A stretch of 64,000 bases of DNA. Source: Candidatus Accumulibacter conexus. GTDB lineage: Bacteria > Pseudomonadota > Gammaproteobacteria > Burkholderiales > Rhodocyclaceae. Both the position numbers and the translations under genes were made by a program. Positions 29,154 to 51,634 of this stretch are shown piece by piece. The notes under the pieces are model-generated. The model saw only the letters and a list, made by a program, of their open reading frames with translations. It was not told where the DNA came from and did not search any database. The DNA lies in the NCBI GenBank assembly GCA_017592775.1, contig JAGFNJ010000011.1, positions 31,881 through 95,880 of the forward strand. The letters are read 5' to 3'. Every line of letters starts with the position of its first letter. Position 1 is the stretch's first letter.

Positions 29154-29160
29154 ATTCAAC

Positions 29161-30336
29161 GTGGAGCAGCGTTCCCGCCGTTTTGCTTTGCGCTGTGCGA
29201 ACGTCAGCAAGACGTTTGCCGTCCACCGTGAGCAGCGTGTTTGGCGAATACTTCTCGGGATGGATAGTGGCGGAAGGGGCCCCGTGGTCCAGGCTTTGCG
29301 GGATATTTCCCTGACTGTCCCACGTGGGAAGATCGTCGGTATCCTCGGTCGGAACGGAGCGGGAAAGAGTACCCTGCTACGCCTCCTGGGCCAGGTTTAC
29401 ACGCCAACTACCGGTCGCATCGAGGTCAATGGGCAGATTGCCGGGCTGTTCGAGTTGGGCGGCATGGGGAATCCCAATCTCACCGGTCGCGAGTATGCCA
29501 CCCGGTATTTGCGGTTCATGGGTGTCGCCGCCGATTCCGTCCTGGCGGTTCTGGAAGAGATCGCCGACTTTTCCGAACTGGGTGATGCCTTCGATCAACG
29601 CATTCGAACCTATTCTTCGGGGATGGCGGCGCGTCTCTACTTCGCTGTGGCCACCGCGTACCAGCACGAAATCTACCTGATTGATGAATTGCTGTCCGTG
29701 GGAGACGAACACTTTCAGGCCAAGTGCTGGCGCCGGATGCGCGAGCGTCTGCTGCGTGGCGCGTCTGGCGTGCTCGTCACGCACGACTGGACGGCGATCG
29801 TCAAGCTGTGCGAGCAGGCATGCGTCATCGACGAGGGCCGCTTCTCTTTCGTCGGCTCGAGTGATTCGGCGGTTGTCAGTTATCTCAAGTTGCCAGTTCC
29901 CAAGCCCGGTGTTGCACGATTTCCGGCTTCGACTCCGCCCGAGTTCCTCCTGGAATCTGGGAAAGACTCGCGCATCCGGCTCCCGGTTGAAATCCTGGAA
30001 GACACGGCGGTTGATTGCGCCATTTCGATAGAGATGTTGCGCATCGGCCTTGGCTGGGAAATCGTAATTCTTTCCGACTACCACCCGATAGGTGACACGG
30101 CTGGAACCTACAGCGCCGACTTCCACATTGCGGCATTGCCGCTTGCGCCTGGCAAGTATTCCCTGAATCTCTTCTTGACCCGGCGACCAGTGGAGGGAGA
30201 ACGCCAGCGGGTGGGTCTGGACTGCAGATCGTGGACCTATGGCAATGGCTTGACATTGCGTGTCGAAGGCAAGGCGTTGCCGTCGGCAGTCACTCTACCT
30301 TTTGCTTCGCGGTCGATCCCGCCGGAGGTTGCGTGA
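29161..30336 (+). CDS. Polysaccharide ABC exporter ATPase, Wzt-like (first of two)
   Basis: A 391-residue ATPase. LGRNGAGKSTLLRLL is Walker A, YSSGMAARLYFAVAT the polysaccharide-type signature, IYLIDELLSVGDEHF Walker B with catalytic Glu, and LVTHDWT the H-loop. About 150 residues beyond the ATPase (~245-391) form a beta-rich C-terminal domain (PGKYSLNLFL), like the glycan-binding domain of Wzt in O8/O9a systems. The start is taken as GTG 29161, seven bases after the previous stop. The stop overlaps the next start (GTGA). Confidence 0.85.
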   Translation: MEQRSRRFALRCANVSKTFAVHREQRVWRILLGMDSGGRGPVVQALRDISLTVPRGKIVGILGRNGAGKSTLLRLLGQVYTPTTGRIEVNGQIAGLFELGGMGNPNLTGREYATRYLRFMGVAADSVLAVLEEIADFSELGDAFDQRIRTYSSGMAARLYFAVATAYQHEIYLIDELLSVGDEHFQAKCWRRMRERLLRGASGVLVTHDWTAIVKLCEQACVIDEGRFSFVGSSDSAVVSYLKLPVPKPGVARFPASTPPEFLLESGKDSRIRLPVEILEDTAVDCAISIEMLRIGLGWEIVILSDYHPIGDTAGTYSADFHIAALPLAPGKYSLNLFLTRRPVEGERQRVGLDCRSWTYGNGLTLRVEGKALPSAVTLPFASRSIPPEVA

Positions 30337-31547
30337 GCCTCTACGTGGAGCTGCATGAGGTATCCAAGGTTTTCCCTGTAGGCAGCTCGGCAACAGGCGA
30401 GCTGGTCGCCGCGATGGCCGGCGATAGTGGCCAAGGACCCGGCGCCGGCGGGAAGGTGGCTGTTGACAGGCTCACCCTTTCCATAACTGAGGGCGAGCGT
30501 CTCGGTATAGTTGGACGCAATGGTGCCGGCAAGTCCACTCTCCTCCACATGATCGCTGGTATTTCGGAGCCAACAGCCGGCAGCATTCGCATCACGGGGA
30601 CGGTCACCTCGATCATGACGCTCGGCGTCGGCTTGCGCGACGACTTGAGCGGCCGGGAGAATATATACGTCGATGGCGAGATCCAGGGGAAGTCGCGCAC
30701 TGACGTGGACCGGGTAATCGATCAGGTCATCGAGTTTGCCGAACTGGGCCAGTTCATCGACTATCCGGTGCGCACATATTCGACCGGGATGAAGGCCCGC
30801 TTGGCATTCGCCATGATCACACACGTAGACCCAGAAATATTGATCATTGACGAGGCGCTCTCCGTGGGTGACGCGTCATTCTCGCTCAAGGCAACGGCAC
30901 GCATCCTTGAAATCTGCGCTCGCGGCAAGATCGTCATTCTCGTCTCTCACGGGATGCAATCGGTGCGGGAGATCTGCAATCGCTGCATCTACATGAAGGA
31001 TGGGCAGATCGTCATGGACGGTTCGCCGCAGGATGTGACGACGGCCTATATCGAGGAGGTTCGTTCTGAGGACGAGGCCGCATTGCTGCAACGATTCCGC
31101 GCCCACGTCGGCAACCGCTCGCGGCGACCGGGAAGCCAGATTCGACGAGTGTGCCTGCTCTCGGGAAGCGACGAAGTTGGATCGCTGCGCGTCGAGGCAC
31201 GGGCGAGACTTCGGATCCGGGTCTTTGGCAGCCACGACAGTGCCTCAGGATCCGCTGTCTGCCGTGTACGAATCGTACGGCTCGATGATTTGCTGGTCTT
31301 TCAACAGGATTTTCGGTTGGCGGACTTTTCCCTTCGCAATGGCGAGATCCGCATCGAGATCGACTTCGATCCCCTTGTGCTCGGCGCAGCGATTTATCGA
31401 TTGGATGCCATCTTCCTTGAGTGTGCAGCTGACGACTCCGAACCATGCTGCGAGCACTCGACGGTCTTCGAAGTCTTCACGCTGACCCCGCCCGTGGGCG
31501 GAAAGCCGATGCTCTATTACCCTGTCACGGCCGTAGTGCAAACCTGA
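30333..31547 (+). CDS. wzt: Polysaccharide ABC exporter ATPase, Wzt-like (second of two)
   Basis: A 404-residue ATPase with IVGRNGAGKSTLLHMI (Walker A), YSTGMKARLAFAM (signature), ILIIDEALSVGDASF (Walker B) and LVSHGMQ (H-loop). A C-terminal extension (~270-404) again looks beta-rich and carbohydrate-binding. An insertion of about 20 Gly/Ala-rich residues lies between the first strands (residues ~20-40). The GTG at 30333 overlaps the preceding stop, so both ATPases are made together just before the permease. Both look catalytically intact, suggesting a heterodimer. Confidence 0.87.
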   Translation: MSLYVELHEVSKVFPVGSSATGELVAAMAGDSGQGPGAGGKVAVDRLTLSITEGERLGIVGRNGAGKSTLLHMIAGISEPTAGSIRITGTVTSIMTLGVGLRDDLSGRENIYVDGEIQGKSRTDVDRVIDQVIEFAELGQFIDYPVRTYSTGMKARLAFAMITHVDPEILIIDEALSVGDASFSLKATARILEICARGKIVILVSHGMQSVREICNRCIYMKDGQIVMDGSPQDVTTAYIEEVRSEDEAALLQRFRAHVGNRSRRPGSQIRRVCLLSGSDEVGSLRVEARARLRIRVFGSHDSASGSAVCRVRIVRLDDLLVFQQDFRLADFSLRNGEIRIEIDFDPLVLGAAIYRLDAIFLECAADDSEPCCEHSTVFEVFTLTPPVGGKPMLYYPVTAVVQT

Positions 31548-31565: not shown

Positions 31566-32351
31566 TTGTTTGGATTCAATCGATACGACCTCCGGCTGCT
31601 CATCAACCTTTTCAAGATGAATGTGCGCGACCGCTACCTCGGATCTTCGTTGGGCAGCTTTTGGGCTATATCCAATCCGCTCTTCATGCTTGCCCTCTAC
31701 ACGTACATCTTCGGATTCGTATTCAAGGTGAAGCTCCCCGGCGCTGAAACCACTTTGGCTTACGTCATTTGGCTTATCAGCGGTTACGGCCCCTGGATTG
31801 CAACCACCGAGGCGATCATGGGGGCTGCCAATTCCGTGGTTGGCGCATCCGGTCTCGTCAAGAACATGGCGTTCAAGACAGAGCTCCTGCCGATTGCTGG
31901 CGCTCTGGTGGGGGCCATCAACCTGGCAGTCAGTTTCGTGTTCTTGCTGGTACTGTTGGCTTGGGCCGGGACGCCAATTACTGTCCACGTGATCTTTCTG
32001 CCCGTAGTGATGGTCCTGCAGTTTTTCTGGATCATCGCTGTCGGGATGTGGCTGTCGGCCATTGCTGTATTCGTGCGCGACATCCTGCAGATTCTTCCCA
32101 CCTTGCTCACTGCGATCATGTTCATGACGCCGATCTTCTACCCCTTCGAAAGCATGCCGGCGATCATCCAGAAAGGCTCATTGGCGAATCCTTTCTATCA
32201 GATTGCCGAGGCATACCGGTCCATTTTGATTGGCAACGAGTTTCCAAGTTGGCCTGGCCTCCTCTACGTTGCGACCATTTCAGGGGTGATATTGCATTTT
32301 GGCCTCGCGGCATTTCGGCGTGCGAAGGGCTCTTTTGATTCTGCGATATAA
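31566..32351 (+). CDS. wzm: Polysaccharide ABC exporter permease, Wzm-like
   Basis: A 261-residue ABC-2 type permease with six hydrophobic helices. The amphipathic start FNRYDLRLLINLFKMNVRDR, then YLGSSLGSFWAISNPL, and the late MFMTPIFYPFESMP and NPFYQIAEAYRSI are characteristic of Wzm/KpsM. The start is TTG 31566 with CAGGAG about eight bases upstream. It exports a lipid-linked polysaccharide across the inner membrane with the Wzt ATPases. Only one permease gene is present for two ATPases. Confidence 0.92.
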   Translation: MFGFNRYDLRLLINLFKMNVRDRYLGSSLGSFWAISNPLFMLALYTYIFGFVFKVKLPGAETTLAYVIWLISGYGPWIATTEAIMGAANSVVGASGLVKNMAFKTELLPIAGALVGAINLAVSFVFLLVLLAWAGTPITVHVIFLPVVMVLQFFWIIAVGMWLSAIAVFVRDILQILPTLLTAIMFMTPIFYPFESMPAIIQKGSLANPFYQIAEAYRSILIGNEFPSWPGLLYVATISGVILHFGLAAFRRAKGSFDSAI

Positions 32352-32353
32352 AA

Positions 32354-35023
32354 ATGAAGACACTAGATTCCAACGCCACTAGTCCGGTCCTCGACTTCGA
32401 TGCCGTACTGTTCCTGACGTGGTCGGATTGGCAGACCGAGCCGAGAAGCAATCGCTATCACTACGCCTCGCGGTTTTCGCGGCATGTTCCCGTATTGTTC
32501 ATTCAGAATCAACGCGAGCTTTGGAATAATATCATTGTCACTGCCTCTGAGCTCGATCATGTCGATCTGATCAGCGTCAGCGCGCCAGTTCAGCCAAACC
32601 AGACACAAGCGATTCTGGAGCTCCTGCGACATCGGGGAATCAAGTGCCCACTGCTATGGATCTACGATTCAATAAACTACGACAACTTGATTGCCGCTAT
32701 GCCGAGGTCTCTTCGTGTCTATCATGCCACTGAAGACTACTTTACCCCGTCTGCGGCAATGCGCACCACTCCTGTTGTGCCCGAGTCCATCCGACGCCTG
32801 ACCGGGAAGCTTGACCTGATCGTTGCGGTAACTGAGCTTGTCTTGAGTGAGATCCGCAAGAACTGCGGATATACGGGGCCGGCCCTGGTGGCGCCGAACG
32901 GATGTGACTTTGAGTTCTTTGCGAGACTGGGCGACCCAGCCAACACTCTTCCTCCTGCGAGGGGGCGCGTGGTGATCTACCAAGGAGCGCTGAATGCGCG
33001 CCTGGACTATGATCTCCTTCATTCAATTGCCTCGCTGTTGCCCGACTACGAGTTTCGTTTCGCTGGCAGGTGCGTGGAGTCCCCGGGGACGGGCAGGCTG
33101 CGCCAGCTGAAGAATGTACGAATCCTCGGCCCGATGGCCCCCGAGCATTTTGGCAGCGAGATGTACCGGGCGTCTGTTGGCATCATCCCGTTTATTCAAG
33201 ATGCGTGGATCCGCAATTCGCTTCCTCTCAAGACCTTCGAGTACGTGGCCTGTGGCTTGCCGGTCGTCTCTGTCCCTATTGAAGCTCTTGCCCAGCATGC
33301 GGCCGACGAATGTATCATCAAGTTTGCGTGCACTGCGGAAGAGTTTGCCGACGCGATACGAAGCGTGAGTGTGAGCCGGCATGATCCTGCCTTGGTTCGC
33401 AAGCGTAGCGAGGTGGCCCGGGAGAATTCCTATGATAGACGCTTTGAGTGTGTCATTGATGAACTGAATTCGGTTTCCCGGCAGGCTCGCGACTCGGTGG
33501 CGCCATTGAATGTTGCCCTGCTGTTTGATCCCGCATCTTGTCACGTTGGGACAGTTGGAGAGCATCTCCGGGCATTTCAGCGTTATTCAGTGCATGATGT
33601 AACATTCCTGCCGGCGACGAATCTTTGGGGCGTCACTTCGGCAATCGGAACCGTTGGCGCCATCGACTTCTCAGTGTTCGACGTCGTCATCGTCCATTAT
33701 TCCATTCGCGTTTCCAGACCGCATCATCTGGTCGAGAATTTTGCCGCCGCATTGGAGTCGTTCCGTGGCCTCAAGGTGCTTTTCATCCAGGACGAGTATG
33801 AGTCGGTTGAGTGCGCCAGGTCGTGGATGGATCGGTTGAACTTCGATCTCGTCTACACGTGTGTTCCCTTGAGCCAGCGGGAAGATGTCTATCCCGCCTA
33901 CAGATTTCCTGGAACCGAGTTTCGTCCGACGCTGACCGGCTATGTTCCCGAAGCGAGGGGCATTGAGCGCTTCGTAACTCCGCTCGCTGCCCGGCGCACA
34001 GCGGTCGCTTATCGCGGCCGGAAGCTGCCGGAGATTTATGGTCAGCTGGGTCACGAGAAGTATCTGATCGGTACTGAGATCAAGCGTCTCGCGGATTCTA
34101 TCGGGCTGCCGGTCGACATCTCGTGCGAGTCCGAGGCGCGCATCTACGGCGACGACTGGTACCGATTTCTTGGTTCGGCCAGGGCAACCTTGGGTACGGA
34201 AAGCGGTTCGAACGTGTTCGATTTTGACGGCTCGCTCAGTGCAGAGATTGACCGTCTCAAGGCTCGGGATCCGGCGATGCCGTTCGCTGAGATCTGGGAA
34301 GCCGTGCTGGTGGAGCATGACGGCAAGATTCGCATGAACCAGGTTTCGCCGAAGATCTTCGAGGCCATCCGCCTGCGTACGGCGCTGATTCTGTTCGAGG
34401 GCGAGTACTCGGGGGTTGTGAAGCCCGACCTGCACTATATTCCCCTCAGGAAGGACTTCGCCAACTTTGATGAGGTCGTCACCAAGGTGATGAACGACAG
34501 TCTCGTCCGGGAGATGACAGACAGGGCCTATGCCGATGTGATTCTTTCCGGGAGATATTCCTATCAGCAGTTCATGGAAGGGGTCGATGAAGATCTGCGG
34601 CTGCGTTGTCTTCGTAGAGTGCCAAGGAGGTTCATGTACGGGGCTGTTCATGCGATGAATGATGCCGGCGAACTGCGGCCATGTCTGCCCGCACTCCCCT
34701 TGGGGCTGGCATGCGCTGCTGACGTGCTGGGGGGGGAGGAGTCTTTTCAGCGGATTCAGGAGAGAGTGGCGTTGGCGGCGGCAACCACGGGTGGTCTTGA
34801 CGCGGAAGACGAAGGGGGGAGAGCCACGCCGAGACAGGGGGGCAAGGACTACGTTGTCAGGATGGGGAAGAGGCTGGTATTGCGATACGGAGCCCCGCCG
34901 CTCCAAAGGCTGCACGCCGCACTGGCCCAGCAGCCTACAGCGAACCACGTGGCACGACTCATCTATTCGAGGATGCCCTCGAGCATCAAGTCGAAGATCA
35001 AGAAGGTCGTCAAGGGTGGCTAG
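32354..35023 (+). CDS. Bifunctional glycosyltransferase: GT4-like domain + module X
   Basis: An 889-residue protein starting two bases after wzm. Residues ~1-380 are a GT4-like transferase, with VYHATEDYFT, NGCDFEFF, YQGALNARLDYDLL and PLKTFEYVACGLPVVS. Residues ~385-750 are module X, also found in two other proteins of this locus: FIQDEYESVE (near 479), LTGYVPE, YRGRKLPEIYGQLGHEKYLI, TLGTESGSNVFDFDG (near 614) and LFEGEYSGVV (near 679). Module X resembles the C-terminal half of CgeB-like GT-B enzymes (xxPxxFEAxxxGxxxI). The last ~140 residues are a low-complexity, basic tail (IKSKIKKVVKGG), possibly for membrane contact. Confidence 0.7.
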   Translation: MKTLDSNATSPVLDFDAVLFLTWSDWQTEPRSNRYHYASRFSRHVPVLFIQNQRELWNNIIVTASELDHVDLISVSAPVQPNQTQAILELLRHRGIKCPLLWIYDSINYDNLIAAMPRSLRVYHATEDYFTPSAAMRTTPVVPESIRRLTGKLDLIVAVTELVLSEIRKNCGYTGPALVAPNGCDFEFFARLGDPANTLPPARGRVVIYQGALNARLDYDLLHSIASLLPDYEFRFAGRCVESPGTGRLRQLKNVRILGPMAPEHFGSEMYRASVGIIPFIQDAWIRNSLPLKTFEYVACGLPVVSVPIEALAQHAADECIIKFACTAEEFADAIRSVSVSRHDPALVRKRSEVARENSYDRRFECVIDELNSVSRQARDSVAPLNVALLFDPASCHVGTVGEHLRAFQRYSVHDVTFLPATNLWGVTSAIGTVGAIDFSVFDVVIVHYSIRVSRPHHLVENFAAALESFRGLKVLFIQDEYESVECARSWMDRLNFDLVYTCVPLSQREDVYPAYRFPGTEFRPTLTGYVPEARGIERFVTPLAARRTAVAYRGRKLPEIYGQLGHEKYLIGTEIKRLADSIGLPVDISCESEARIYGDDWYRFLGSARATLGTESGSNVFDFDGSLSAEIDRLKARDPAMPFAEIWEAVLVEHDGKIRMNQVSPKIFEAIRLRTALILFEGEYSGVVKPDLHYIPLRKDFANFDEVVTKVMNDSLVREMTDRAYADVILSGRYSYQQFMEGVDEDLRLRCLRRVPRRFMYGAVHAMNDAGELRPCLPALPLGLACAADVLGGEESFQRIQERVALAAATTGGLDAEDEGGRATPRQGGKDYVVRMGKRLVLRYGAPPLQRLHAALAQQPTANHVARLIYSRMPSSIKSKIKKVVKGG

Positions 35024-35024
35024 C

Positions 35025-37841
35025 ATGCGGAGCGAGATGGCGAAGCACGGTTGCGCGTTTCAGCGATTCATTGCCCATAGGCCGGAAAGAGTATTGTTGG
35101 TGGGCTACTTCGATCCGCGGGGGATCTCGACGGTGCCGGAGACGCTTGCCGCGATTCAGTGGCTCTCCTCGTTGACGGTAACCTGCCTGAACCTGTTTCA
35201 CCACCGCTTTGATACCGGCAACCTCAGGTTGAATCCCGAGGTTGATCTCGATGCCTACGATGCCGTCATTGTGCACAACTCGGTTTCCTATAACCCCGCC
35301 AACGTCGCTTCACTGGATTCGCTGCTCGCCAGGAAGTTCGCTGATTTCGGTGGAGCTCGAGTTCTCTTCAAGCAGGACGAAAACTATCGGTTCCGAGATA
35401 CCGCCGAGGTGATTGGCCGGATGCACTTCGATGTTGTGCTGACTTGTCTGCCTGAGGGCGAACTGTCGAAGATCTATCCAAGAGACGTGGTGGGCAATGG
35501 GGTGCGGTTCGTGCGGATGCTCACAGGTTATGTGACGCCATCATTGCGGACGCGTTTCCCAGCCCTGGGTGGGACGGTTGGGCGGCCAATCGATATCGGC
35601 TATCGTGGCTCCATACAGCCCTTGGACTTTGGACGGTTGTGCTACGAGAAAAGGCAGATTGGAGACGAGGTAAAGAGGAGGCTCGAGGGCAGGGGCTTTT
35701 CGATGGATATCTCCAGTCGCTGGGAGGACCGATTCGGCGGCGAGGCGTGGTTCGACTTTCTCACCCGCTGCACCTGCATTCTCGGGGTCGAGTCCGGCGC
35801 CAGCATCTTCGATCTGGACGGCGATCTCGACCGAAGAGTTCAAGGCATTGTCCAGCGTCTTGGGCCAATCCGAGAGGACTCGGCCTACTGCGAGTCTTTT
35901 TTGGATGCACTTCGTGATCTCGAAGGCAACGTGGCCTACAACCAGGTGTCGCCACGCCATTTCGAGGCGGCGGCCTGCGGTGCGCTGCAAATCATGTACC
36001 CGGGCGAGTACTCCGGGATTTTCCTCGCCGATCGTCATTATCTGAGCTTGGCGCGAGATTTTTCGGATCTCGACGACGTGTCGGAACGGGCTCGGGATCC
36101 TGTCTTCCGGAGAAGGATTGTTGAGTGCGCTTTTGACGAGATCGTGATGAACCGGGACTACTGGATCGAATCCTTTGTTGCCCGGCTTGATGAGGCGATA
36201 CTTCAGTGCCTTGAAGAGAAGGGCGGGAAGCGAAAGGAACGCGTTCTGGTGAAAGAGGATGCGCACCATGGCTTGTTGCTCGCGCCGCACCGTGCCCACT
36301 TGGACCCGCGGTTGCGATGGATCCTCGAAGGGGCAGCCGGCGCAATGACGATCTCCCTCATGGGTCTGGAACTCGGGGGCGCGCAGGAGGTGTCCCCTCT
36401 GGCCGGTTTGGACGGATTCCTCGGTGACCAACCAGTGGTTGCGGCGGAAGCCTCCTGGTTGACCCTCATCTCATCGATGGTGGGATCCGATCCCGCGGGG
36501 AACGCCGCACTGAGGGAACTTCTCGAACTGGAGCGCTCGCGTGCGTTGCCCACTGTCTCGCTTTGCGAGCGTTATGGGGCGCCGACTTCCAGCCCGCGTC
36601 TGGACGATTTCAGGTGGTATCTGACATACCTTCTGGACGTCACGAGAAGCCTGGTGATGCCGGCGCTGGCACTGCGCGGGCTCCAGTTCGTCGTGGCGGC
36701 GGACCTGCCAGCGCTACCGGCGGCCCTGATCCTCAAGGCAGTCCTTGGTGCCAAGGTACTCTATGATGCTCATGAGTACTGGGCGGAGAACGATGGTCGC
36801 GCCGAGCCTTTTGAGATCGCATTTTGGCAGGCGATCGAGCGGCGACTGGCGCCGCATGCCGACCTGTGCCAAGTTGTGTCCCCAGGTTTGGCAGAGCTGC
36901 TGAGCAACGAGACCGGGTGTCGCTTTGACTCGGTTCCGAATTGTACCCCCAAGGGGGCGCTCGGGCGCCGCTCGGATTCGCCGGGGGCTGCGGCAGCGAA
37001 GCCCGCCGGCATATCCAAGGTCCGGTTCCTCTTTCAGGGGCTGTTGACCCCGGGGCGTGGACTCGAAGAGCTTCTGCATGTGTGGACGAGGGTGCCGGAT
37101 AATGCACAGCTTTGCTTGCGGGGACCAGAAGGAGATTTCAAGAACTCGTTGGTCAGGATGGCTTCCGACCTGGGGCTCTCGAGCGAGGCTGTTGTGTTCT
37201 TGCCGGCCGTCAGCGAGGACGAGTTGGTCAGCGAAGCGACGGGGTTTGATGTGGGACTGATTCCTTATCCTCCTTCCAATACCAACAACGCCAATTGCTG
37301 CCCGAACAAGATGTCTCAGTACATGGCGGCGGGGCTGGCGATACTGGCCAACGATACCAGCTACGTTCGCCAGATCGTGACGGCTGCGGAATGCGGTCTT
37401 GTCGTTGACTTCGGCAGGGCAGATCTGCTGGTCGAAAGGATAGAGTTCCTTGCTTCACAAGATGCCGAGCGTTCGGCCATGGCTGCTTCTGCTCAGAGCT
37501 ACTTCCTCGCTGTCTTCAATTGGGAGTCCGTGAGCAGCGCCATGTATCGGAGGTTGCTCCAACTCGTCGCGGACAAGCCGACGACGGCTCTGTCGAGCTG
37601 GCCGGTGGGTCCGTTCGCAGTTTATCGGCAACCAGTGGCCACAACTGATGCCGCTGGGCGTCGTGCGCAGACCAGCGAGCGGTCGCCGTTTTCGGAGAGT
37701 CCAACTGATCGGCGGGCGAACGGCGACTTCCAACATCTCATCCATCGGATTTCCCGGGCCGCCTGGCGGCGGCTGCCGGAGATTCTTCGCAAGAGGCTTC
37801 GGCCGCTGAAGTCCTGGGCCACAGGCGGTGGGGAGGGCTGA
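35025..37841 (+). CDS. Bifunctional glycosyltransferase: module X + GT4 domain
   Basis: A 938-residue protein with the reverse order of its upstream neighbour. Module X spans ~15-400, with FKQDENYRFR (near 116), LTGYVTPSL, IDIGYRGSIQPLDFGRLCYE, ILGVESGASIFDLDG (near 253), NQVSPRHFEAAACGALQIM and PGEYSGIF (near 325). Residues ~560-900 are a GT4 transferase with LYDAHEYWAEND, CQVVSPGLAELL, FLFQGLLTPGRGLEELL and LIPYPPSNTNNANCCPNKMS. I take ATG 35025, one base after the previous stop; ATG 35037 is an alternative. It ends in a basic helix. Two active domains would let one chain add two sugars. Confidence 0.72.
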   Translation: MRSEMAKHGCAFQRFIAHRPERVLLVGYFDPRGISTVPETLAAIQWLSSLTVTCLNLFHHRFDTGNLRLNPEVDLDAYDAVIVHNSVSYNPANVASLDSLLARKFADFGGARVLFKQDENYRFRDTAEVIGRMHFDVVLTCLPEGELSKIYPRDVVGNGVRFVRMLTGYVTPSLRTRFPALGGTVGRPIDIGYRGSIQPLDFGRLCYEKRQIGDEVKRRLEGRGFSMDISSRWEDRFGGEAWFDFLTRCTCILGVESGASIFDLDGDLDRRVQGIVQRLGPIREDSAYCESFLDALRDLEGNVAYNQVSPRHFEAAACGALQIMYPGEYSGIFLADRHYLSLARDFSDLDDVSERARDPVFRRRIVECAFDEIVMNRDYWIESFVARLDEAILQCLEEKGGKRKERVLVKEDAHHGLLLAPHRAHLDPRLRWILEGAAGAMTISLMGLELGGAQEVSPLAGLDGFLGDQPVVAAEASWLTLISSMVGSDPAGNAALRELLELERSRALPTVSLCERYGAPTSSPRLDDFRWYLTYLLDVTRSLVMPALALRGLQFVVAADLPALPAALILKAVLGAKVLYDAHEYWAENDGRAEPFEIAFWQAIERRLAPHADLCQVVSPGLAELLSNETGCRFDSVPNCTPKGALGRRSDSPGAAAAKPAGISKVRFLFQGLLTPGRGLEELLHVWTRVPDNAQLCLRGPEGDFKNSLVRMASDLGLSSEAVVFLPAVSEDELVSEATGFDVGLIPYPPSNTNNANCCPNKMSQYMAAGLAILANDTSYVRQIVTAAECGLVVDFGRADLLVERIEFLASQDAERSAMAASAQSYFLAVFNWESVSSAMYRRLLQLVADKPTTALSSWPVGPFAVYRQPVATTDAAGRRAQTSERSPFSESPTDRRANGDFQHLIHRISRAAWRRLPEILRKRLRPLKSWATGGGEG

Positions 37842-37842
37842 G

Positions 37843-39747
37843 ATGTGCGGCTTTGTGGGCGTGATTTCTCCGGCGGTGCCCATCCGCGATGACCTCTTGT
37901 CTGCCATGCGAGACCGACTGGTTCACCGCGGCCCAGACAACGGATCGAACTGGATTCGGAACGGGGGGCGGGTTAGCCTCGCGCATCGGCGTTTGTCGAT
38001 CATTGATGTTTCGCACTCGGCAGATCAACCCATGGCGACGCCCGACGGTGCGTTGCGAATTGCCTTCAACGGGGAAATATACAACTACCTTGAATTGAGA
38101 AGTGAGCTCATAGGGCTTGGCCATGTCTTTCAGACACGCAGCGACACGGAGGTCCTGCTTGCCGCCATCAGACAATGGGGCGAAGCAGCTCTTCTGCGGC
38201 TGAACGGAATGTTCGCTTTTGCCGTGTGGGATGAACGGTCTCGCCGTATGTTCGTGGCGCGCGATCGGTTTGGCGAAAAGCCCCTGTTTGTCGGCCAAGG
38301 GCGATTCAATACCGTCCTCTTTGCTTCAGAGATGAAGGCGATCCTTGTCCATCCGCTGATCCGCTGCGTCGTTAGCGAGCGGGCTCTGGATCGCTTCGGA
38401 TCTGGAACGTGGTACGAGGACGACGAGCTGACGTTCTTCGACGGTGTCGAGCGCTTTCCCCCTGCCACTGCTGCATGGTTCCTTGAGGATGGAACCGAAG
38501 AGCGCCGCTGGCGCTATTGGACGCCGGATTACACTTCCGTCAACGAGGATCTGACACCACGCGACGCTGTGGAGAGATTTTCGGAACTGATGCAGCGAAG
38601 CGTCAGCCTCCGGCTGCGGGCCGATGTTCCCATCGGGTCGAGTCTTTCCGGTGGTCTGGATTCCTCGGTGATCGTTGGTTATCTGTCTCGCGCACGCGGT
38701 ACAGCAGGTTTTTCGCAGAATACGTTTTCCGCCGTTTTCCCTGATGATCCGACAATGTCGGAAGGCAAGGAGGTCGACGCCGTCGTCGCGCACACCGGTG
38801 TCAACTCGTTTCAGGTGGCGCCGGACCCTTCGCGTCTCGCGCAAGAGTCCGCGCTGCTTCACTGGCACCAGGAGGAGCCATTCCTGTCTGCCTCCATCTA
38901 CCTGCAGTGGTGCGTGGCGCGCCTCGCGCGTCAGCACGATACGACGGTTCTTCTCGACGGGCAGGGTGCAGACGAGTTGCTCGCCGGCTACCAGTTCTAT
39001 TTCAGGCAACGGCAACTTGATTTGCTTGATCAAGGGCGTCTCGCTCTGGCGATGAGGGAGTCGTCGAAGTTCAACCGCCGTCTGCGCATCGCGAGTGAGC
39101 AGTATGAGGGATCGCAGCGACGGTTCAATGCATCGGTCGCATATTCTGCCGAGGAGCTGCGCAAGATGGGGCGGCCTTCGTCATCGGTTTTTCACCAACC
39201 TTACTCGGTGGGCACTGCGCCGGCGAGACCTGGTTGCCGATTGCGCCGGACGATTTCGGAAGCTTTGTTGTACAACAGTCTGCCCATGCTTCTCCGGTAC
39301 GCTGACAGGAACTCGATGGCCTTTTCTCGTGAGGGCAGGTTGCCGTTTCTCGACTATGACATGGTGGACTTCTGCATTTCCCTCCCGGACGATTTTTATG
39401 TGAGGAACGGTTGGCAGAAGTGGGTATTGCGGGTGGCTGCCGGAAATACCATTCCTCGATCGATCCGCTGGCGTGCCGACAAGGTCGGTTACGCGGCACC
39501 ACTGGACCATTGGTTGCGCGGCAAGTTGCGTGACTGGGCACACGAGAGAGTCATGGATGGCGCACTGAAGGTCGTGCCAGGATACGACAGCCAAAGGGTA
39601 ACGACACTTTGGGAAGAACATCAGGCAGGAAGCTGCAACCATTCCTGGGAGCTCTGGCGCTGGATCAGTCTTTCCGAATGGTTCAGCATATACCGCGCCG
39701 GTTGGTGGCGTGCTGGCACGGCTTCCAGACCGAGCACGCAGGAATGA
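37843..39747 (+). CDS. Asparagine synthetase-like amidotransferase (AsnB family), second copy
   Basis: A 634-residue class II amidotransferase. The ATG at 37843 places MCGFVGVIS at the N-terminus, with catalytic Cys2. HRGPDNGSNW, FNGEIYNYLEL and SGSxxG-type glutaminase residues follow; SLSGGLDSSVI near 266 is the PPi loop. RYADRNSMAFSREGRLPFLD replaces the usual EDKLSMAxxxExRxPFLD, so the acceptor site differs from the first and third copies. It starts one base after the module X-GT4 gene and fits sugar amidation better than asparagine synthesis. Confidence 0.85.
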   Translation: MCGFVGVISPAVPIRDDLLSAMRDRLVHRGPDNGSNWIRNGGRVSLAHRRLSIIDVSHSADQPMATPDGALRIAFNGEIYNYLELRSELIGLGHVFQTRSDTEVLLAAIRQWGEAALLRLNGMFAFAVWDERSRRMFVARDRFGEKPLFVGQGRFNTVLFASEMKAILVHPLIRCVVSERALDRFGSGTWYEDDELTFFDGVERFPPATAAWFLEDGTEERRWRYWTPDYTSVNEDLTPRDAVERFSELMQRSVSLRLRADVPIGSSLSGGLDSSVIVGYLSRARGTAGFSQNTFSAVFPDDPTMSEGKEVDAVVAHTGVNSFQVAPDPSRLAQESALLHWHQEEPFLSASIYLQWCVARLARQHDTTVLLDGQGADELLAGYQFYFRQRQLDLLDQGRLALAMRESSKFNRRLRIASEQYEGSQRRFNASVAYSAEELRKMGRPSSSVFHQPYSVGTAPARPGCRLRRTISEALLYNSLPMLLRYADRNSMAFSREGRLPFLDYDMVDFCISLPDDFYVRNGWQKWVLRVAAGNTIPRSIRWRADKVGYAAPLDHWLRGKLRDWAHERVMDGALKVVPGYDSQRVTTLWEEHQAGSCNHSWELWRWISLSEWFSIYRAGWWRAGTASRPSTQE

Positions 39748-39769
39748 AATTGAAGAAAAGGTAATCACC

Positions 39770-41662
39770 GTGTGTGGAATTTTCGGATTCTTGGCGACGC
39801 AGCCGCGCCCCCTGCATCAATCGGACGTCGAACTTGATATTGGCTTGGAGAGACTTCGCCACCGCGGCCCAGATGGTATGGGCAAGTGGGTATCGGCGAA
39901 TGGTCAAGTTGGGCTTGGCCATGTAAGGCTTTCCATTATCGACCTGGAAACAGGCGCGCAGCCGATGCACAGCGATGATGGGCGCTACAGCATAATTTAT
40001 AATGGAGAAATCTACAACTATATCGAGTTGCGGGCAGAGTTCGGTGAGGCTTCTTTCCGTACCCATTCCGATACCGAGGTGGTGTTGCGAGCTTTCCAGG
40101 AATGGGGGCCGGACTGCATATCGCGGCTGCGGGGGATGTTTGCCATCGCGATCTGGGACTCCGCGAAACAACAGTTGTTCGTCAGCAGGGACCGGTTCGG
40201 CATCAAGCCTTTTTATTGGGCTCAGACCGTCAAGGGGTTCTATTTCGCATCCGAGATCAAGGCGCTACTGCCTTTCTTGAAGGATCGTGCCGTCAACCGC
40301 GCCGCACTGACGGATTATTTCACCTTCCAGTTTTGCCTCGGCGAAAAGACGCTCGTCGACTCGGTCTGGCAGTTGCCAGCCGCCCATTTTGCAGTCGTCT
40401 CAGCTGGCCAGAATCCAAAGCCCCAGCGCTACTGGGAGGTTCACTACGACGTTGATTACGATCATACCGAGCGTTGGTTTACCCAGCGCTTGCGCGATCT
40501 CCTCGAAGACTCGGTGCGCGTCCACCTGCGAGCCGACGTAGAGGTCGGCAGTTATGTCAGTGGTGGCGTCGACTCCAGCCTGCTGGCTGCGCTGGCTCGC
40601 GAGGTGCGGCCCGATGGGCCATTCAAGGCGTTCAACGGCCGCTTCATGGATGGGGACGAGTTCGATGAGTCGCGCTATGCGAAGGCGTTGGCGGACGAGC
40701 GGCGGATGGAGCTGCATGTGACCGATATTGGCGAGCAGGATTTTGTCGATCACATTGCCAAGGTGATCTGGCACCTCGATCAGCCAACAGCCGGCCCCGG
40801 ATCTTTCCCGCAGTACATGGTTTCGAAGCGAGTCGGTGAGCACATCAAGGTAGTTCTCGGTGGGCAAGGTGGGGACGAAATCTTCGGCGGCTATGCACGT
40901 TACCTCGTGGCTTACTTCGAACAGTGCATCAAGGGGGCGATCGAAGGGACGCTCCACAACGGAAACTACGTGGTGACCTACGAGTCGATCATTCCGAATC
41001 TGCAGACACTGCGCCAGTACAAGCCGATGCTGCGCGAGTTCTGGGCAAGCGGCGTGTTTGGCGAGCGCGATGAGCGTTATTGGCGCCTGGTCAACCGGGC
41101 GAACACCTACGGGAACATCCTTGCGCCGGGGGTCCTTGAGCAGCGGGCGGCCTTCGACGAGTTCAAGAGCATTTTCTGGGGCAGCAACGTCGGCAAGGAA
41201 TCCTACTTCGATTCCATGACGCACTTCGATTTCAAGACCTTGCTGCCGGCACTGCTGCAGGTCGAGGATCGGATGAGCATGGCGCATGGGGTCGAGGCAC
41301 GGGTGCCGTTTCTTGATCACCCGCTGGTCGAATTTGCTGCAACGATTCCTGCCGACATCAAGTTCCGCAACGGCGAGCTGAAGCGTTTGCTGAAAGCCGT
41401 CTTTTCGGATCAATTGCCGGTCGCGATCCGCGAGCGGAAGGACAAGATGGGCTTCCCGGTTCCGCTCAATCTCTGGCTAAAGCGACCTGGCCCGACACGC
41501 GACCTGATCGGCGATCTGTTCGGATCGGAAGCCGCCCGTTCACGTCCGTATCTGAACAGTCCGGTTTCGATCGATGCCGTTCTGGATTCACAAAGCACCC
41601 ATGGCCGGAATCTGTGGGCGCTGTTGAGCCTGGAGTTGTGGCACCAGCAGTTCATCGATTGA
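39770..41662 (+). CDS. Asparagine synthetase-like amidotransferase (AsnB family), third copy
   Basis: A 630-residue class II amidotransferase. I choose the GTG at 39770, because processing of the initiator must expose the catalytic Cys in (M)CGIFGFLA; AAAGG lies upstream. HRGPDGMGKW, YNGEIYNYIEL, SGGVDSSLLAAL (near 263) and EDRMSMAHGVEARVPFLDH are intact. It resembles the first copy more than the second. It lies between the second copy and the free-standing module X gene. Confidence 0.86.
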   Translation: MCGIFGFLATQPRPLHQSDVELDIGLERLRHRGPDGMGKWVSANGQVGLGHVRLSIIDLETGAQPMHSDDGRYSIIYNGEIYNYIELRAEFGEASFRTHSDTEVVLRAFQEWGPDCISRLRGMFAIAIWDSAKQQLFVSRDRFGIKPFYWAQTVKGFYFASEIKALLPFLKDRAVNRAALTDYFTFQFCLGEKTLVDSVWQLPAAHFAVVSAGQNPKPQRYWEVHYDVDYDHTERWFTQRLRDLLEDSVRVHLRADVEVGSYVSGGVDSSLLAALAREVRPDGPFKAFNGRFMDGDEFDESRYAKALADERRMELHVTDIGEQDFVDHIAKVIWHLDQPTAGPGSFPQYMVSKRVGEHIKVVLGGQGGDEIFGGYARYLVAYFEQCIKGAIEGTLHNGNYVVTYESIIPNLQTLRQYKPMLREFWASGVFGERDERYWRLVNRANTYGNILAPGVLEQRAAFDEFKSIFWGSNVGKESYFDSMTHFDFKTLLPALLQVEDRMSMAHGVEARVPFLDHPLVEFAATIPADIKFRNGELKRLLKAVFSDQLPVAIRERKDKMGFPVPLNLWLKRPGPTRDLIGDLFGSEAARSRPYLNSPVSIDAVLDSQSTHGRNLWALLSLELWHQQFID

Positions 41663-41668
41663 AGCTTG

Positions 41669-42964
41669 ATGAACCGCCTGAACATCTTGGTGCTGCATCG
41701 GCTGGGAAACCCTCGCTTGGCCCCGAGCTTCCTCCGCCACCATGTATTCGCATTGCGCGACGCGTTCCCCGAGCACAACTACCTGTATCACGACACCGAA
41801 CTACCGCTGCCCGACTACATTCTGGATGTTGCCTTCGATGCCATCGTTCTCGATGTCAGCTTCCTGTGGATTCGCTGGCTACCTCTGCCGATTTTCCAGA
41901 GCATCAAGGAGATCTACGGCTTCGTCCGCAACAGTGGCGCGCTGAAGCTCGCTTTTCCGCAGGACGAGTACGACTGCAACGAACTGCTCGACGACTGGAT
42001 GTGCGACTGGCAGGTGGACCACGTGTTTTCGGTGATCCCCTCGCATTGGGATGTCCTCTATCCGCGCTACCATCGCCAAGGCTCGATACGCTTGGCCTAC
42101 ACGGGGTACGTCGACCAGACACTCCTCGCTCGGGAGCCAAGGCCCTTCGCGGCCAGGCGGATCGACATCGGCTACAGGGCGCGCCGACTGCCACCGTACT
42201 TTGGCAGGATCGGGGAGACGAAGTGGGCGATTGGCGAACTGGTAAAGGTACCCGCGAGCCGTGCCGGCTTGACGACTGACATCGTTCTCGGCGACCAAGG
42301 CGCACTGCTTGGCGCGCAGTGGCTCGACTTCCTGGGCGATTGCCGTTTCACCCTTGGTGCCAACAGCGGCAGCAGCCTTCTCGATCCGCGGGGGGATATT
42401 CAGCGAAGGGTCCGGGCCTATCTCAAGGCCCATCCGGCAGCGTCTTTCGAGGAAGTGGAGGCGAACTGCTTCCCTGGCCTCGACGGGCGCCACTCATTCA
42501 CCGCGATTTCGCCTCGCGTCCTCGAAGCGGGGTTGCTCGGCAGTTGTCAGGTGCTGGTAGCGGGCGACTATAGCGGCATCGTCAGGCCATGGGAGCACTA
42601 CATTCCCATCCGCGCCGATGCCACCGATTTTCCGCAGGTTCTTGAGGCGATGCGCGACCGCCAACTCGTGGAGCGACTGATCAGGAACTGCCGGGAAGCG
42701 ATCCTGGACAGCAAGCAGTTGCATTATGGGTACAAGGCCGCGACCGTGATCGGCCTGATCGAGTCGCATCGGGCGAAGGGCGCGGCGGCCACCGATGGCG
42801 AAGCCATGCAACGGACCATTCGACGTTACGAAGAAGCCATGCAGCAGCAGTACGCCAAGCATTGGCGCCGGCAGTCGTTCAGGCGCAACCTGAGCCGCTT
42901 CGTCGATCGTTCGCCGACGGTGTCACGCCTGGCCAGAAGTGTCTGGTCAAGGCTGCGAGGGTGA
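41669..42964 (+). CDS. Glycosyltransferase-like protein, module X alone
   Basis: A 431-residue protein consisting of module X without a GT4 partner. FPQDEYDCNELL (near 97), YTGYVDQTLL, IDIGYRARRLPPYFGRIGET, FTLGANSGSSLLDPRGD (near 229), ISPRVLEAGLLGSCQVLVAG and GDYSGIVRPWEHYIPI match the two fused copies segment by segment. The shared late stretch (PRxxEAxxxGxxQ, then GxYSGxxxxxxHY) looks like the donor-sugar half of a GT-B enzyme of the CgeB/Glyco_trans_1_2 kind. I use the ATG at 41669. It is followed by two ordinary GT4 genes. The function is inferred, not shown. Confidence 0.65.
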   Translation: MNRLNILVLHRLGNPRLAPSFLRHHVFALRDAFPEHNYLYHDTELPLPDYILDVAFDAIVLDVSFLWIRWLPLPIFQSIKEIYGFVRNSGALKLAFPQDEYDCNELLDDWMCDWQVDHVFSVIPSHWDVLYPRYHRQGSIRLAYTGYVDQTLLAREPRPFAARRIDIGYRARRLPPYFGRIGETKWAIGELVKVPASRAGLTTDIVLGDQGALLGAQWLDFLGDCRFTLGANSGSSLLDPRGDIQRRVRAYLKAHPAASFEEVEANCFPGLDGRHSFTAISPRVLEAGLLGSCQVLVAGDYSGIVRPWEHYIPIRADATDFPQVLEAMRDRQLVERLIRNCREAILDSKQLHYGYKAATVIGLIESHRAKGAAATDGEAMQRTIRRYEEAMQQQYAKHWRRQSFRRNLSRFVDRSPTVSRLARSVWSRLRG

Positions 42965-42968
42965 AGTG

Positions 42969-44216
42969 ATGGACGCTGCGGCAGCACGCCAGGACCACGA
43001 TTCGAAATCGATACTGATGCTGACGGCAGACCGGCAGATCGACAGGAGAATCCTCCTGCAGGCCGACAGCCTCGAGAAGGCGGGCTGGCAGGTGACGATT
43101 CTGGCGATGAAGGAAGAAGACGCTGACAGGCGAAGCGACTCGAGAGTGGTCCGCGTTGGTGGCGGCACCGAAGTCGGCGGGCTCGAAGAGCGCGTGGCGG
43201 ATGGGTATCGCCAGCTCGCCAGACGACTGCCGATGAATGGCCCCGTCATGCGGCTGCTGAAAGGACTCGCGTGGCGGTTCCTTGTCGATCAGGAGACGTT
43301 TCACGCCAGACTGTACAGCGGTGTGGCCTCGCGCTTTGCGCCGCAGGTCGTCGTTGCTCACGATCTGCCGATGTTGCCCGTCTCCTGCCAAGTCGCGCGC
43401 GCCTGCGGCGCACGCCTCGTCTATGATAGCCACGAGCTCTACAGCGAACAGGAGTTTCCCGCCCGCGAGAGGAAGCGCTGGGCAGAGATCGAGGCGCGGT
43501 ACATCGGAAACTGCGACGCCGTGATGACCATCAACGAGTCGATCGCCGGCGAACTCGCTCGTCGCCATGCGCTCCGCCAGGTGCATGTCATCAGCAATGC
43601 TGAGCGCACGTCTGATCCTCCGCCAAGGTCCCACCGTTTTCATGAGCTCTTCGGACTGCCCGCGACGCGCAAGGTGGTGCTCTTCCAGGGCGGACTCTCG
43701 GCAAACAGAAACTTGCAGGCGCTGGTTGAGGCCATGCGCCATGTGACGAACCCGGACGTGGTTCTGGTGATCCTTGGTGACGGTGCCTTGCGGCAGAACC
43801 TGATGCGAGAGGCCCGATCGCAGCCGGGCGCGCAACGAGTCTTCTTTCATCCTGCAGTTCCTCAGCACGAGTTGCTGCGCCATACCGCCGCGGCAGACGC
43901 TGGCGTGATCCCGTACCAGGCCACCTGTCTCAACAACTACTTCTGCACGCCAAACAAGCTGTTCGAGTTCATCGCCGCCGGCGTCCCCATACTCGGCAGC
44001 GACCTGCCGGAGATCAGCAAAATGGTTGCCGGGCGAGGGATCGGAATCGTCGGCGACATGAGCAGTGCACGGGCAGTAGCTGGTCTGATCGACCAACTGT
44101 TCGCCGACGAGGCCCGCCTCGCCGTCTGGCGGAAGAATCTGCAGGAGACACGCCAGGCCGTCTGCTGGGAGGCAGAGGAAGGCAAGCTCCTGGCCATCTA
44201 CGAGGCACTGCCATGA
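42969..44216 (+). CDS. Glycosyltransferase family 4
   Basis: A 415-residue GT4-type glycosyltransferase. LVYDSHELYSEQEFP near residue 155 is the family's first-domain acidic motif; VVLFQGGLSANRNLQALVEA and FCTPNKLFEFIAAGVPILGS (E-x7-E region, near 335) form the nucleotide-sugar half. The ATG at 42969 lies four bases after the previous stop with a GA-rich ribosome site. Its stop overlaps the next gene's start (ATGA). The donor is unknown. Confidence 0.85.
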   Translation: MDAAAARQDHDSKSILMLTADRQIDRRILLQADSLEKAGWQVTILAMKEEDADRRSDSRVVRVGGGTEVGGLEERVADGYRQLARRLPMNGPVMRLLKGLAWRFLVDQETFHARLYSGVASRFAPQVVVAHDLPMLPVSCQVARACGARLVYDSHELYSEQEFPARERKRWAEIEARYIGNCDAVMTINESIAGELARRHALRQVHVISNAERTSDPPPRSHRFHELFGLPATRKVVLFQGGLSANRNLQALVEAMRHVTNPDVVLVILGDGALRQNLMREARSQPGAQRVFFHPAVPQHELLRHTAAADAGVIPYQATCLNNYFCTPNKLFEFIAAGVPILGSDLPEISKMVAGRGIGIVGDMSSARAVAGLIDQLFADEARLAVWRKNLQETRQAVCWEAEEGKLLAIYEALP

Positions 44217-45478
44217 GGATCGCGATCGTCTATCAGTACTACCAGGGGACGGTCGCACCGGGCCATTCGCTGATTTACGAGCTGGCGCAGTTCCTCGCCG
44301 GGCGGGGTCACGAAGTGACCGTAGTCAGTGGTGAAACCGGGTACATGCAGCGCGACACCCCGACCTTGCCGTGGTACCGCCGCCTCCGGCGGGAAGAACG
44401 GGATGGCCAAGTGCGGGTGCTGCGCACCTTCACCTATTCCGAGCTACATCGCAGCTACCTCGGGCGCCTCCTGAGCTTCGCGTCGTTCTCGATTTCCGGT
44501 GCCCTCGGGTTGCTGACGGTCGACAGAGTGGACCTGGTGCTTGCTTCCTCACCGCCCATCTTTCCGATTTTTGCTGCCGCCCTTGTCTGCCGGATTCGTC
44601 GAATGCCGCTGGTGATCGAGGTGCGCGACTTGTGGCCCGAATCTGCGGTGCAGATGGGAATCCTGAAGAACCGGATCCTGATCCGCATCATGGCGTGGAT
44701 GGAACGACGGCTCTATGACCAGTCGGCACGCATCGTCACTCTGACTGAAGGCATTCGTGACGACATCTGCGCCCGTGGCTGGCCCGCGGACAAGCTCGAG
44801 GTGGTCACCTGTGGCGTCGATTTCGAACGGCTCTACCCGGATCCGCAAGGAGCCGCGCTGACGCGCACCGCTCTCGGCTGGAAAGACAAAAAGGTCGTCA
44901 TGTACTTCGGAGCCCTCGGTGAAGCGAACAACATCCCGGTAATCCTGAGAGCGGCGCGCTCCTTGCGCGAGCGTAGCGAGATCCTCTTCGTGCTCGTTGG
45001 CGATGGCCTTCGGCGCCAGGCAATCGAACACGAGGTCGTGGCGGACGAACTCGCCAACGTCGTCGTTCTTCCACCTGTAGCCAAGGATCAGGCCCGTGTC
45101 TATCTCAGTGCCGCAGACGTCTGCCTGGTCACGCTGAAGGACATCCCGTTGTTCGACGGCGCGATTCCGACCAAGCTGATCGATTACATGGCGTGTGCGC
45201 GGCCGGTTCTTTGCGGCATCCGGGGTGAGGCACGGCGGATTCTCGACACGGCGCAGGCGGGGTTGGAGTTTGAACCCGATGACGACAGGCAGTTGGCCCG
45301 TTTGATCAGCGAGCTGCTTGATGACCAAGGGTGCCGTGAGCGCCTCGGTGCCAATGGCCTTGCCTTCGTTCGATCCCACTTCTCGGCGGAACGGATGCGC
45401 GAAAAGATGGAAAGTATCCTGCGCATGGTTGCCGAGACCGGCAGCGCCTCCAACCCCGCTGCCGATGGGCTCCGTTAA
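44213..45478 (+). CDS. Glycosyltransferase family 4, WbuB-like
   Basis: A 421-residue GT4 enzyme resembling WbuB/WcaI-type aminosugar transferases. It starts MRIAIVYQYYQGTVAPGHSL, with LVIEVRDLWPESAVQMG near 140 (the WbuB-type DLWP motif), VMYFGALGEANNIPVILRA and PTKLIDYMACARPVLCGI. Two hydrophobic stretches near 80-125 suggest membrane association. Start overlap with the previous gene indicates coupling. WbuB relatives often add the first or second N-acetylated amino sugar. Confidence 0.85.
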   Translation: MRIAIVYQYYQGTVAPGHSLIYELAQFLAGRGHEVTVVSGETGYMQRDTPTLPWYRRLRREERDGQVRVLRTFTYSELHRSYLGRLLSFASFSISGALGLLTVDRVDLVLASSPPIFPIFAAALVCRIRRMPLVIEVRDLWPESAVQMGILKNRILIRIMAWMERRLYDQSARIVTLTEGIRDDICARGWPADKLEVVTCGVDFERLYPDPQGAALTRTALGWKDKKVVMYFGALGEANNIPVILRAARSLRERSEILFVLVGDGLRRQAIEHEVVADELANVVVLPPVAKDQARVYLSAADVCLVTLKDIPLFDGAIPTKLIDYMACARPVLCGIRGEARRILDTAQAGLEFEPDDDRQLARLISELLDDQGCRERLGANGLAFVRSHFSAERMREKMESILRMVAETGSASNPAADGLR

Positions 45479-49238: not shown

Positions 49239-49687
49239 TGAACGAAAAACAAGCATCTGTCGCTGCGCGGGTTGCCGAGCTGGCCTGCCTGCCCATGTCC
49301 GAACTCTGGACGGTGTGGGATCGATATTTCCCCCGTCGTCCGGACTACCCAAACCGGACGCACGTCGAGTCGCGCATCGCCTACAAACTGCAGGAGGAAG
49401 CCTTCGGTGGTCTCGCGCCCGAGACGAAGCAGAGACTGGAGGCCATCGGCGCGAAGCACTCCAAGATCAAGCTGCGCGCCAAGCCGCGTGAGATCCATTT
49501 CGCGCCGGGCACGATCTTACTGCGCGAATGGGGCGAGCGCGCGCACAGGGCGACGGTCACCGCCGAGGGGCTATTCGAGTACGAAGGGCGCACGTTCAAG
49601 AGTCTGACTGCTGTGGCTCGGCACATCACCGGCACGCATTGGAGTGGTCCCCTGTTCTTCGGTCTGCGCAAGGGAGGGACGCAATGA
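49238..49687 (+). CDS. DUF2924 domain protein
   Basis: A 149-residue basic protein. LPMSELWTVWDRYFPRRP, RIAYKLQEEAFGG, PGTILLREWGERAHRATVTA and GRTFKSLTAVARHITGTHWS fit DUF2924, found next to serine recombinases of prophages and integrative elements. The late segment resembles a small DNA-binding barrel. Start ATG 49238 (GTG 49235 possible); its stop overlaps the recombinase start (ATGA). It probably helps the recombinase, but this is not established. Confidence 0.85.
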   Translation: MNEKQASVAARVAELACLPMSELWTVWDRYFPRRPDYPNRTHVESRIAYKLQEEAFGGLAPETKQRLEAIGAKHSKIKLRAKPREIHFAPGTILLREWGERAHRATVTAEGLFEYEGRTFKSLTAVARHITGTHWSGPLFFGLRKGGTQ

Positions 49688-51425: not shown

Positions 51426-51634
51426 GGAGGCGAGATGTCCAAGAGGCACTACGGCAAACAGACAGGCCGCCCTGTCACCCACGAGATCCCGACACCCGTG
51501 TGTATTCCACGGCAAACTGGACAGTGATTCCACGGCAAACTGGACACCGATTCCAGGGCAAACTGGACAGTCATTTGTCCTAGCGTAGCGCGCGGGATAA
51601 CTGTGGCATCCTCGGTCAATTTGCCGAGGCCCAC

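Follow-up and report, generated by a model that had tools for sequence, protein, structure and literature searches.

In Klebsiella, the polymerases that build O-antigens exported by ATP-binding cassette (ABC) transporters comprise both single- and multi-module proteins and come with coiled-coil rulers, as described in the accessible part of PMC11231755. AsnB-type enzymes of surface-glycan loci are reported to make uronamides in the accessible part of PMC7468200; the examples there are E. coli O121 WbqG and Porphyromonas gingivalis WbpS, the latter studied by deleting wbpS. Accumulibacter is presented in excerpts of PMC9238405 and PMC6446978 as a key phosphorus-removing organism in wastewater plants. 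The excerpted text of a 2026 study of the nucleotide-sugar genes of Accumulibacter notes that the specificity of glycosyltransferases is difficult to read from their sequence and that how far the full machinery varies has yet to be observed (PMC12925313). Here we describe a module, termed X, that occurs in three proteins (A, B and C) encoded in a 64,000-nucleotide stretch of Candidatus Accumulibacter conexus (contig JAGFNJ010000011.1, positions 31,881 to 95,880; the whole stretch is called the window). The region is a surface-polysaccharide locus, and the X-bearing proteins are three of the six glycosyltransferase-like proteins examined in it. Their modules are as follows.

32354..33478, plus strand: N-terminal GT4 module of A, residues 1–375, with Pfam PF13692 at 206–337
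33479..34663, plus strand: module X of A, residues 376–770, with a predicted second GT-B unit at 386–751
35025..36242, plus strand: module X of B, about residues 17–406
36432..37574, plus strand: C-terminal GT4 module of B, approximately residues 470–850, with PF00534 at 41.3 bits (667–824) and PF13579 at 34 bits
41669..42964, plus strand: C, a free-standing module X that takes up nearly the whole protein (residues 1–391)

As far as the available text of the Klebsiella study goes (PMC11231755), this arrangement resembles that of WbbM, WbdA, WbbY and ORF6-O7, in which two glycosyltransferase modules likewise share one chain beside single-module glycosyltransferases in an ABC-exporter locus. The Klebsiella loci are also exchanged between lineages and have a coiled-coil-like protein nearby, for which the counterpart here would be GT_D, a glycosyltransferase-like protein of the same locus. 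However, the Klebsiella polymerases belong to glycosyltransferase families other than X and GT4, and polymerisation by two-module enzymes is in our case a prediction from sequence. No chain terminator was identified in the X locus of the window.

The three open reading frames (ORFs) were found as given in the preliminary description, with A at 32354–35023 (889 residues), B at 35025–37841 (938 residues) and C at 41669–42964 (431 residues), and Pfam bore out the proposed order of modules, with GT4 being N-terminal in A, C-terminal in B and absent from C. The X segments matched one another far above noise, with pairwise E-values of 1e-48, 4e-42 and 3e-26 (BLASTP, database size set to 1,000,000). 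Neither the two GT4 halves nor GT_D matched an X segment at E 10, a weak control because these sequences failed to match one another too. A search of the whole Ca. Accumulibacter genome of the window with C revealed no fourth copy. The motifs listed in the preliminary description proved to be a real family signature, since they are conserved over an alignment of 36 members (33 of 37 candidate locus segments plus the three segments of the window, the other four candidates being duplicates of kept rows). Invariant in all 36, in C numbering, are Q98, D99, E100, G146, R163, Y169, R170, G179, K185 and W218, and likewise G230, G234, D239, P282, E286, G299, Y301, H310 and D317. Sequence comparison shows A, B and C to be one homologous family in three architectures, linked to GT4, to AsnB-type amidotransferase genes and, in some of the loci, to Wzm/Wzt exporter genes.

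Structure prediction gave two Rossmann-like halves for X in both C and A, as would be expected of the GT-B fold, with an identical order of strands and helices in the two predictions. The model of C is GT-B over the catalytic length and matches solved GT-B enzymes, and a sequence search found no solved structure for C. The first half of X, which the preliminary description had called unfamiliar, corresponds in the predicted model to the N-terminal Rossmann half of a GT-B enzyme. The predicted models therefore show a complete two-Rossmann GT-B fold of X. It could be argued that one half of each fusion is inactive and binds the acceptor or a partner, like the reported GT47 half of EXTL3. The N-terminal parts of two relatives (L010, 224 residues; L006, 313 residues), which are unmatched by the GT4 profile and look like GT4 pieces by eye, would suit that explanation. 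Against it, both GT-B units of A are whole in the predicted model and the X invariants are retained in A, B and C alike, and we regard it as improbable.

We then compared X with named families. C matched nothing in Pfam or NCBIfam at E 0.1. Over the 36 members NCBIfam gave three unrelated single matches (best 0.012), and no member matched DUF3880 or the GT4 models PF00534 and PF13692 at E 0.1. PF13524 was touched by 17 of the 36 at E ≤0.1 (best 2.3e-7), C not being among them, and the best PF13524 stretch of B, residues 304–370, lies within X. GT90 (PF05686) was touched by two members, the best at E 0.0033; the PF05686 cut-off of 24 bits was not reached by X members, and such E-values correspond to ∼17–18 bits elsewhere in the Pfam results. 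In a profile search of the PDB, X matched the GT90 enzyme POGLUT1 over 39 positions (2.4e-4), and the top structural match of X among viral proteins was a CgeB-like protein. Thus, the claim of an undescribed family holds in that no strong match to a characterised glycosyltransferase family was found and X has no name in Pfam or NCBIfam, apart from a PF13524 match over part of the profile in some members, including the X part of B. The late motifs, which had been described as CgeB-type, are indeed present, and they are GT90-like as well, including the HYxPxxxDxS stretch of the GT90 C-terminus.

DUF3880 is the N-terminal part of CgeB-like proteins, and EX7E is the motif of GT4. In profile–profile comparison, 14 bacterial GT90 proteins aligned with X at 95.9% over 77 columns in its last third, covering the HYxP...D stretch and its surroundings; the values were 92.5% over 56 columns with a PF13524-type protein (L035) and 26.8% over 73 columns with a DUF3880 protein (L065). 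The controls gave 0.3% for the four GT4 modules of the window, 0.1% for GT_D and 0.1% for a column-shuffled X. The first Glu of EX7E was absent from all 36 members, the residue eight positions before the invariant Glu being N in 24, T in 3, R in 3, Q in 2, another residue in 4 and Glu in none, which sets X apart from its fused GT4 partner.

These resemblances raise the question of whether X belongs, as a distant but ordinary subfamily, to the CgeB-like (PF13524) or GT90 enzymes and is not new at family level. The PF13524 and GT90 matches, POGLUT1, the CgeB-like viral protein and L035 all speak for such a subfamily, and CgeB-like enzymes share with X the GT-B fold and the late motifs. However, the similarity is confined to ∼40–80 columns of the last third of X; outside it nothing of GT90 matched. 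No X member matched the DUF3880 part of CgeB-like enzymes at E 0.1, L065 reached no more than 26.8% in the profile comparison, and the QDE motif of the N-terminal half is X's own. Membership of X in GT90 was also considered and was rejected: seven weak matches in phylum samples of 397 genomes, like the bacterial GT90 proteins, cover positions 301–358 of the X profile alone; Pfam assigned six of the seven to GT90 and one to PF13524 just below the cut-off, and none was counted as X. We consider the subfamily explanation rather unlikely. Taken together, the Pfam, profile and EX7E results indicate that X is a separate group whose donor half is related to CgeB-like and GT90 enzymes.

Genomes of another family of the phylum (f66; L051–L060) encode several proteins of 500–570 residues with a weakly GT90-like C-terminus and a long unfamiliar N-terminus. 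The idea that these are overlooked X proteins found no support, the profile comparison giving 1.4%.

We think it likely that X is a family of nucleotide-sugar-dependent GT-B glycosyltransferases, unnamed in the libraries searched, that works as follows. The C-terminal half (YRxR...G...K; LGxESGxxxxD; SPRxFEA; GxYSGxxxPxxHYxxL) would hold the donor nucleotide in the style of GT90 and CgeB-like enzymes. The invariant Q-D-E, just past the fourth strand of the N-terminal half, would face the cleft and supply an acceptor-side or catalytic acidic residue. Each X would transfer one sugar; A (GT4-X) and B (X-GT4) would be two-site enzymes that each form two linkages on a cytoplasmic lipid-linked chain, and C would add a further linkage, the paralogues presumably differing in specificity. 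The product would be exported via Wzm/Wzt as an O-antigen-like or capsule-like glycan, in which the neighbouring AsnB enzymes probably amidate carboxylic acids of sugars. Naming the module makes three large unexplained Accumulibacter proteins testable, and the two kinds of fusion offer a natural set for asking how two transferases on one chain cooperate.

Instead of building the chain, X proteins might decorate a finished glycan or transfer to protein or another acceptor. The number and order of X genes differ among loci, and the GT90 relatives include protein O-glucosyltransferases, judging by their PDB names; both would agree with such a role. The fusion of X to GT4 and the ABC-exporter ATPase pair found beside X in 5 of 17 loci argue instead for chain building, and we think a decorating role unlikely.

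The 17 loci were obtained with a profile of the three X segments in data holding one genome per species, and they are a lower bound because the scan relies on short peptide patterns. They contain relatives in six phyla (as named in the record titles, several records being metagenome bins) and are differently built, which contradicts the suggestion that X is specialised for the glycan of this window. X can serve as a marker of glycan loci of this type, whose distribution is patchy. The 51 X-bearing ORFs include fusions of either order from outside Accumulibacter: two ORFs of Achromobacter and others of a Hyphomicrobiales genome, Microvirga and G364 are GT4-X, and X-GT4 occurs in Bradyrhizobium and Microvirga. 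Judged from sequences and predicted models, X is a real GT-B family with recurrent fusions that is widespread and not private to this glycan.

A tree of X was built from 47 of the 51 rows (two partial duplicates, one fragment and one broken gene were left out); "group" here means one side of a branch, since the root is a midpoint chosen for drawing. All four X-GT4 rows cluster together (100/100). So do the nine GT4-X rows, in a second group (100/100) that also includes one row whose 313-residue N-terminus is negative with the GT4 profile. C falls in a third deep group with proteins of Chloroflexota, Thermodesulfobacteriota (on a long branch) and G364. Because the X parts of A and B and C fall in three different deep groups, the three are old paralogues, and recent tandem copying was ruled out by this tree.

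Within the genus Candidatus Accumulibacter 5 of 28 genomes gave an X match, within the genus of the Achromobacter sp. record (L007) 1 of 43, and in the phylum sample 2 of 397 once the seven GT90/PF13524-type matches had been set aside. The two genus counts rule out genus-wide carriage. The whole-genome searches scored the best candidates per genome (up to four for X and three for AsnB2), so that misses are possible. Close relatives of X in distant hosts, together with the patchy presence, fit horizontal movement of the locus. Plasmids and phages gave no tblastn match to the X segment of A, none of 107 candidate stretches picked from viral_contigs by X peptide patterns was confirmed, and neither PADLOC (searched with C and the X segment of A) nor PHROGs (all three X segments) gave anything at E 0.01. 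A description of the family was not met among the matches listed from open-licence PubMed Central text, an unnamed family offering no direct search term. In L020 and in contigs C121 and C368 of G451, a Gammaproteobacteria bin, the X gene and the AsnB gene match in several separate pieces.

The locus encodes three AsnB-like amidotransferases, all of which pass the TIGR01536 cut-off of 267.1.

19324..21201, plus strand: AsnB0, third amidotransferase of the locus, Pfam PF00733, TIGR01536 at 443.4 bits
37828..39747, plus strand: AsnB1, glutamine amidotransferase/asparagine synthase-like, between B and C, TIGR01536 at 420.6 bits
39710..41662, plus strand: AsnB2, amidotransferase of the X-linked group, TIGR01536 at 523.9 bits

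To our reading of the accessible text (PMC7468200), WbpS and WbqG resemble these three in being AsnB-type enzymes of surface-glycan loci. In 17 genomes, an AsnB gene lay within 10 kb of 28 of 40 X genes, compared with 28 of 148 GT4 genes away from X (Fisher p 2e-9, which overstates the certainty because genes within one locus are not independent); within 5 kb the counts were 19 of 40 and 19 of 150. These counts used 62 of 87 AsnB matches (those below 100 bits were dropped), the best 150 of 278 GT4 matches and 40 of 42 X matches, the other two being small fragments of a single broken gene. The omission of AsnB pieces does not favour the link, because two of them in G451 lie within ∼3 kb of X. 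In a tree of 60 of the 62 AsnB matches, built by a quick method (both absent ones are from G437), 14 AsnB2-type proteins form one group (99 in the Shimodaira–Hasegawa-like approximate likelihood ratio test, SH-aLRT). All 14 lie within 25 kb of X, a limit chosen after the distances were known, with two members at 21 and 24 kb. Its sister group consists of five AsnB proteins of genomes without an X match, and AsnB1 groups with X-linked relatives. The X-linked label changes 7 times on the tree, against a mean of 24 after shuffling. In phylum samples of 397 genomes drawn in the same way as for X, AsnB2 matched at ≥50% identity in two genomes, the same two that hold X, and at 45–47% in five others and 38% in one. 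AsnB at 44–47% identity was considered as a sign of hidden X loci; five such loci were checked and the idea was dropped, the best X score being E 0.043.

Several results weigh against the mechanism proposed above and its amidation step in particular. The TIGR03108 cut-off of 816.9, for the family that contains WbpS, was not reached by AsnB0 (433 bits), AsnB1 (374 bits) or AsnB2 (419 bits). When genomes are counted instead of genes, little of the AsnB contrast is left (14 versus 11 of 17), and the AsnB2 group has no member in 5 of the 17 X genomes, the tree having lacked two AsnB genes of one of these. The scan for a nucleotide-sugar 6-dehydrogenase motif found none in the window and one in 2 of the 19 other pieces (L016 and L157), so that the acid for amidation must have another source, unless the amide idea is mistaken. 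Finally, the roles given to QDE and E286 are ones that we infer. If the AsnB link is functional, it predicts an amide in the glycan, detectable by glycan analysis. The more far-reaching proposal, that X is the start of a new GT-B family acting as a set with AsnB2 (plus AsnB0 and AsnB1) to add uronamide-type sugars, in a cassette exchanged between phyla, is speculative, and we would not expect it to hold in full.

The rest of the locus encodes nucleotide-sugar enzymes (RmlA, a WecB-type epimerase, two DegT aminotransferases and four epimerase-family proteins), a WbqC-like protein, and the following export and transferase genes.

27504..29153, plus strand: GT_D, glycosyltransferase-like, with an (AELK)n helix near the N-terminus; PF13524 and PF00534 at E ∼1e-3, both below the cut-off
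29083..30336, plus strand: WztA, ABC ATPase (Pfam PF00005; motifs)
30231..31547, plus strand: WztB, second ABC ATPase (Pfam PF00005; motifs)
31566..32351, plus strand: Wzm, ABC-2 permease (Pfam PF01061, 56.6 bits)
42939..44216, plus strand: GT4 glycosyltransferase (Pfam PF00534, 62.6 bits)
44213..45478, plus strand: GT4 glycosyltransferase (Pfam PF00534, 67.3 bits)

WztA and WztB (29083–31547) both have Walker A, signature and Walker B motifs and adjoin a single permease. The ATPase pair is kept beside X in L004 (Ca. Accumulibacter adjunctus), L005 (Accumulibacter sp. SCELSE-3), L013, L014 and L015; the permease is listed in four of these five, and in L004 an overlapping ORF takes its place. 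This conservation suggests an ATPase of two different subunits in these exporters. GT_D is kept near X in L004, L005, L008, L014 and L015. Its (AELK)n helix derives from a 12-bp unit present in 8.1 copies at 98% identity (window 27609–27705); its L004 and L005 relatives have helices that have diverged but are of much the same size, and those in L014 and L015 begin after the helix. From its repeat structure, the helix could be a molecular ruler, possibly of variable length.

The ends of A and B share a motif.

34964..34999, plus strand: C-terminal motif of A, Y-x-x-M-P-x-x-I-K-x-x-I (strict pattern)
37764..37799, plus strand: C-terminal motif of B, W-x-x-L-P-x-x-L-R-x-x-L, after GT4 (pattern search)

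Within their last 55 residues, 14 of the 47 X proteins have the strict pattern [WYF]xx[LMIV]Pxx[ILVM][RK]xx[IL], which occurs in none of the other ORFs of two comparison sets (276 and 166). The set of 276 consists of ORFs longer than 200 residues from the whole window, the 17 X loci, two G364 pieces and five loci without X. Those five loci also contributed to the set of 166, which therefore partly overlaps the first and otherwise stems from the surroundings of GT90, f66, DUF3880 and AsnB genes. A looser form occurred in 19 of the 47, compared with 0.26 expected from shuffled tails and 1 of 276 other C-termini. The pattern was written once the tails were known, the tails of homologous proteins are not independent, and at least one tail among the 47, that of L026, is truncated because its stretch ends there. 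C has no such motif, and it occurs in X proteins of different architecture. Because it follows GT4 in B, the motif marks the end of the protein and not the X domain; it is possibly a docking motif. At N-termini the looser form was found in 3 of the 276 ORFs, two of them being GT_D and its L004 relative.

Outside these genes, the window holds two arrays of ∼3 copies each of a 23-bp repeat (51504–51571 and 54248–54312), which are reverse-complementary to each other. They lie downstream of an ORF (49528–51063) that looks by eye like a serine recombinase, and they are possibly the ends of a mobile element.

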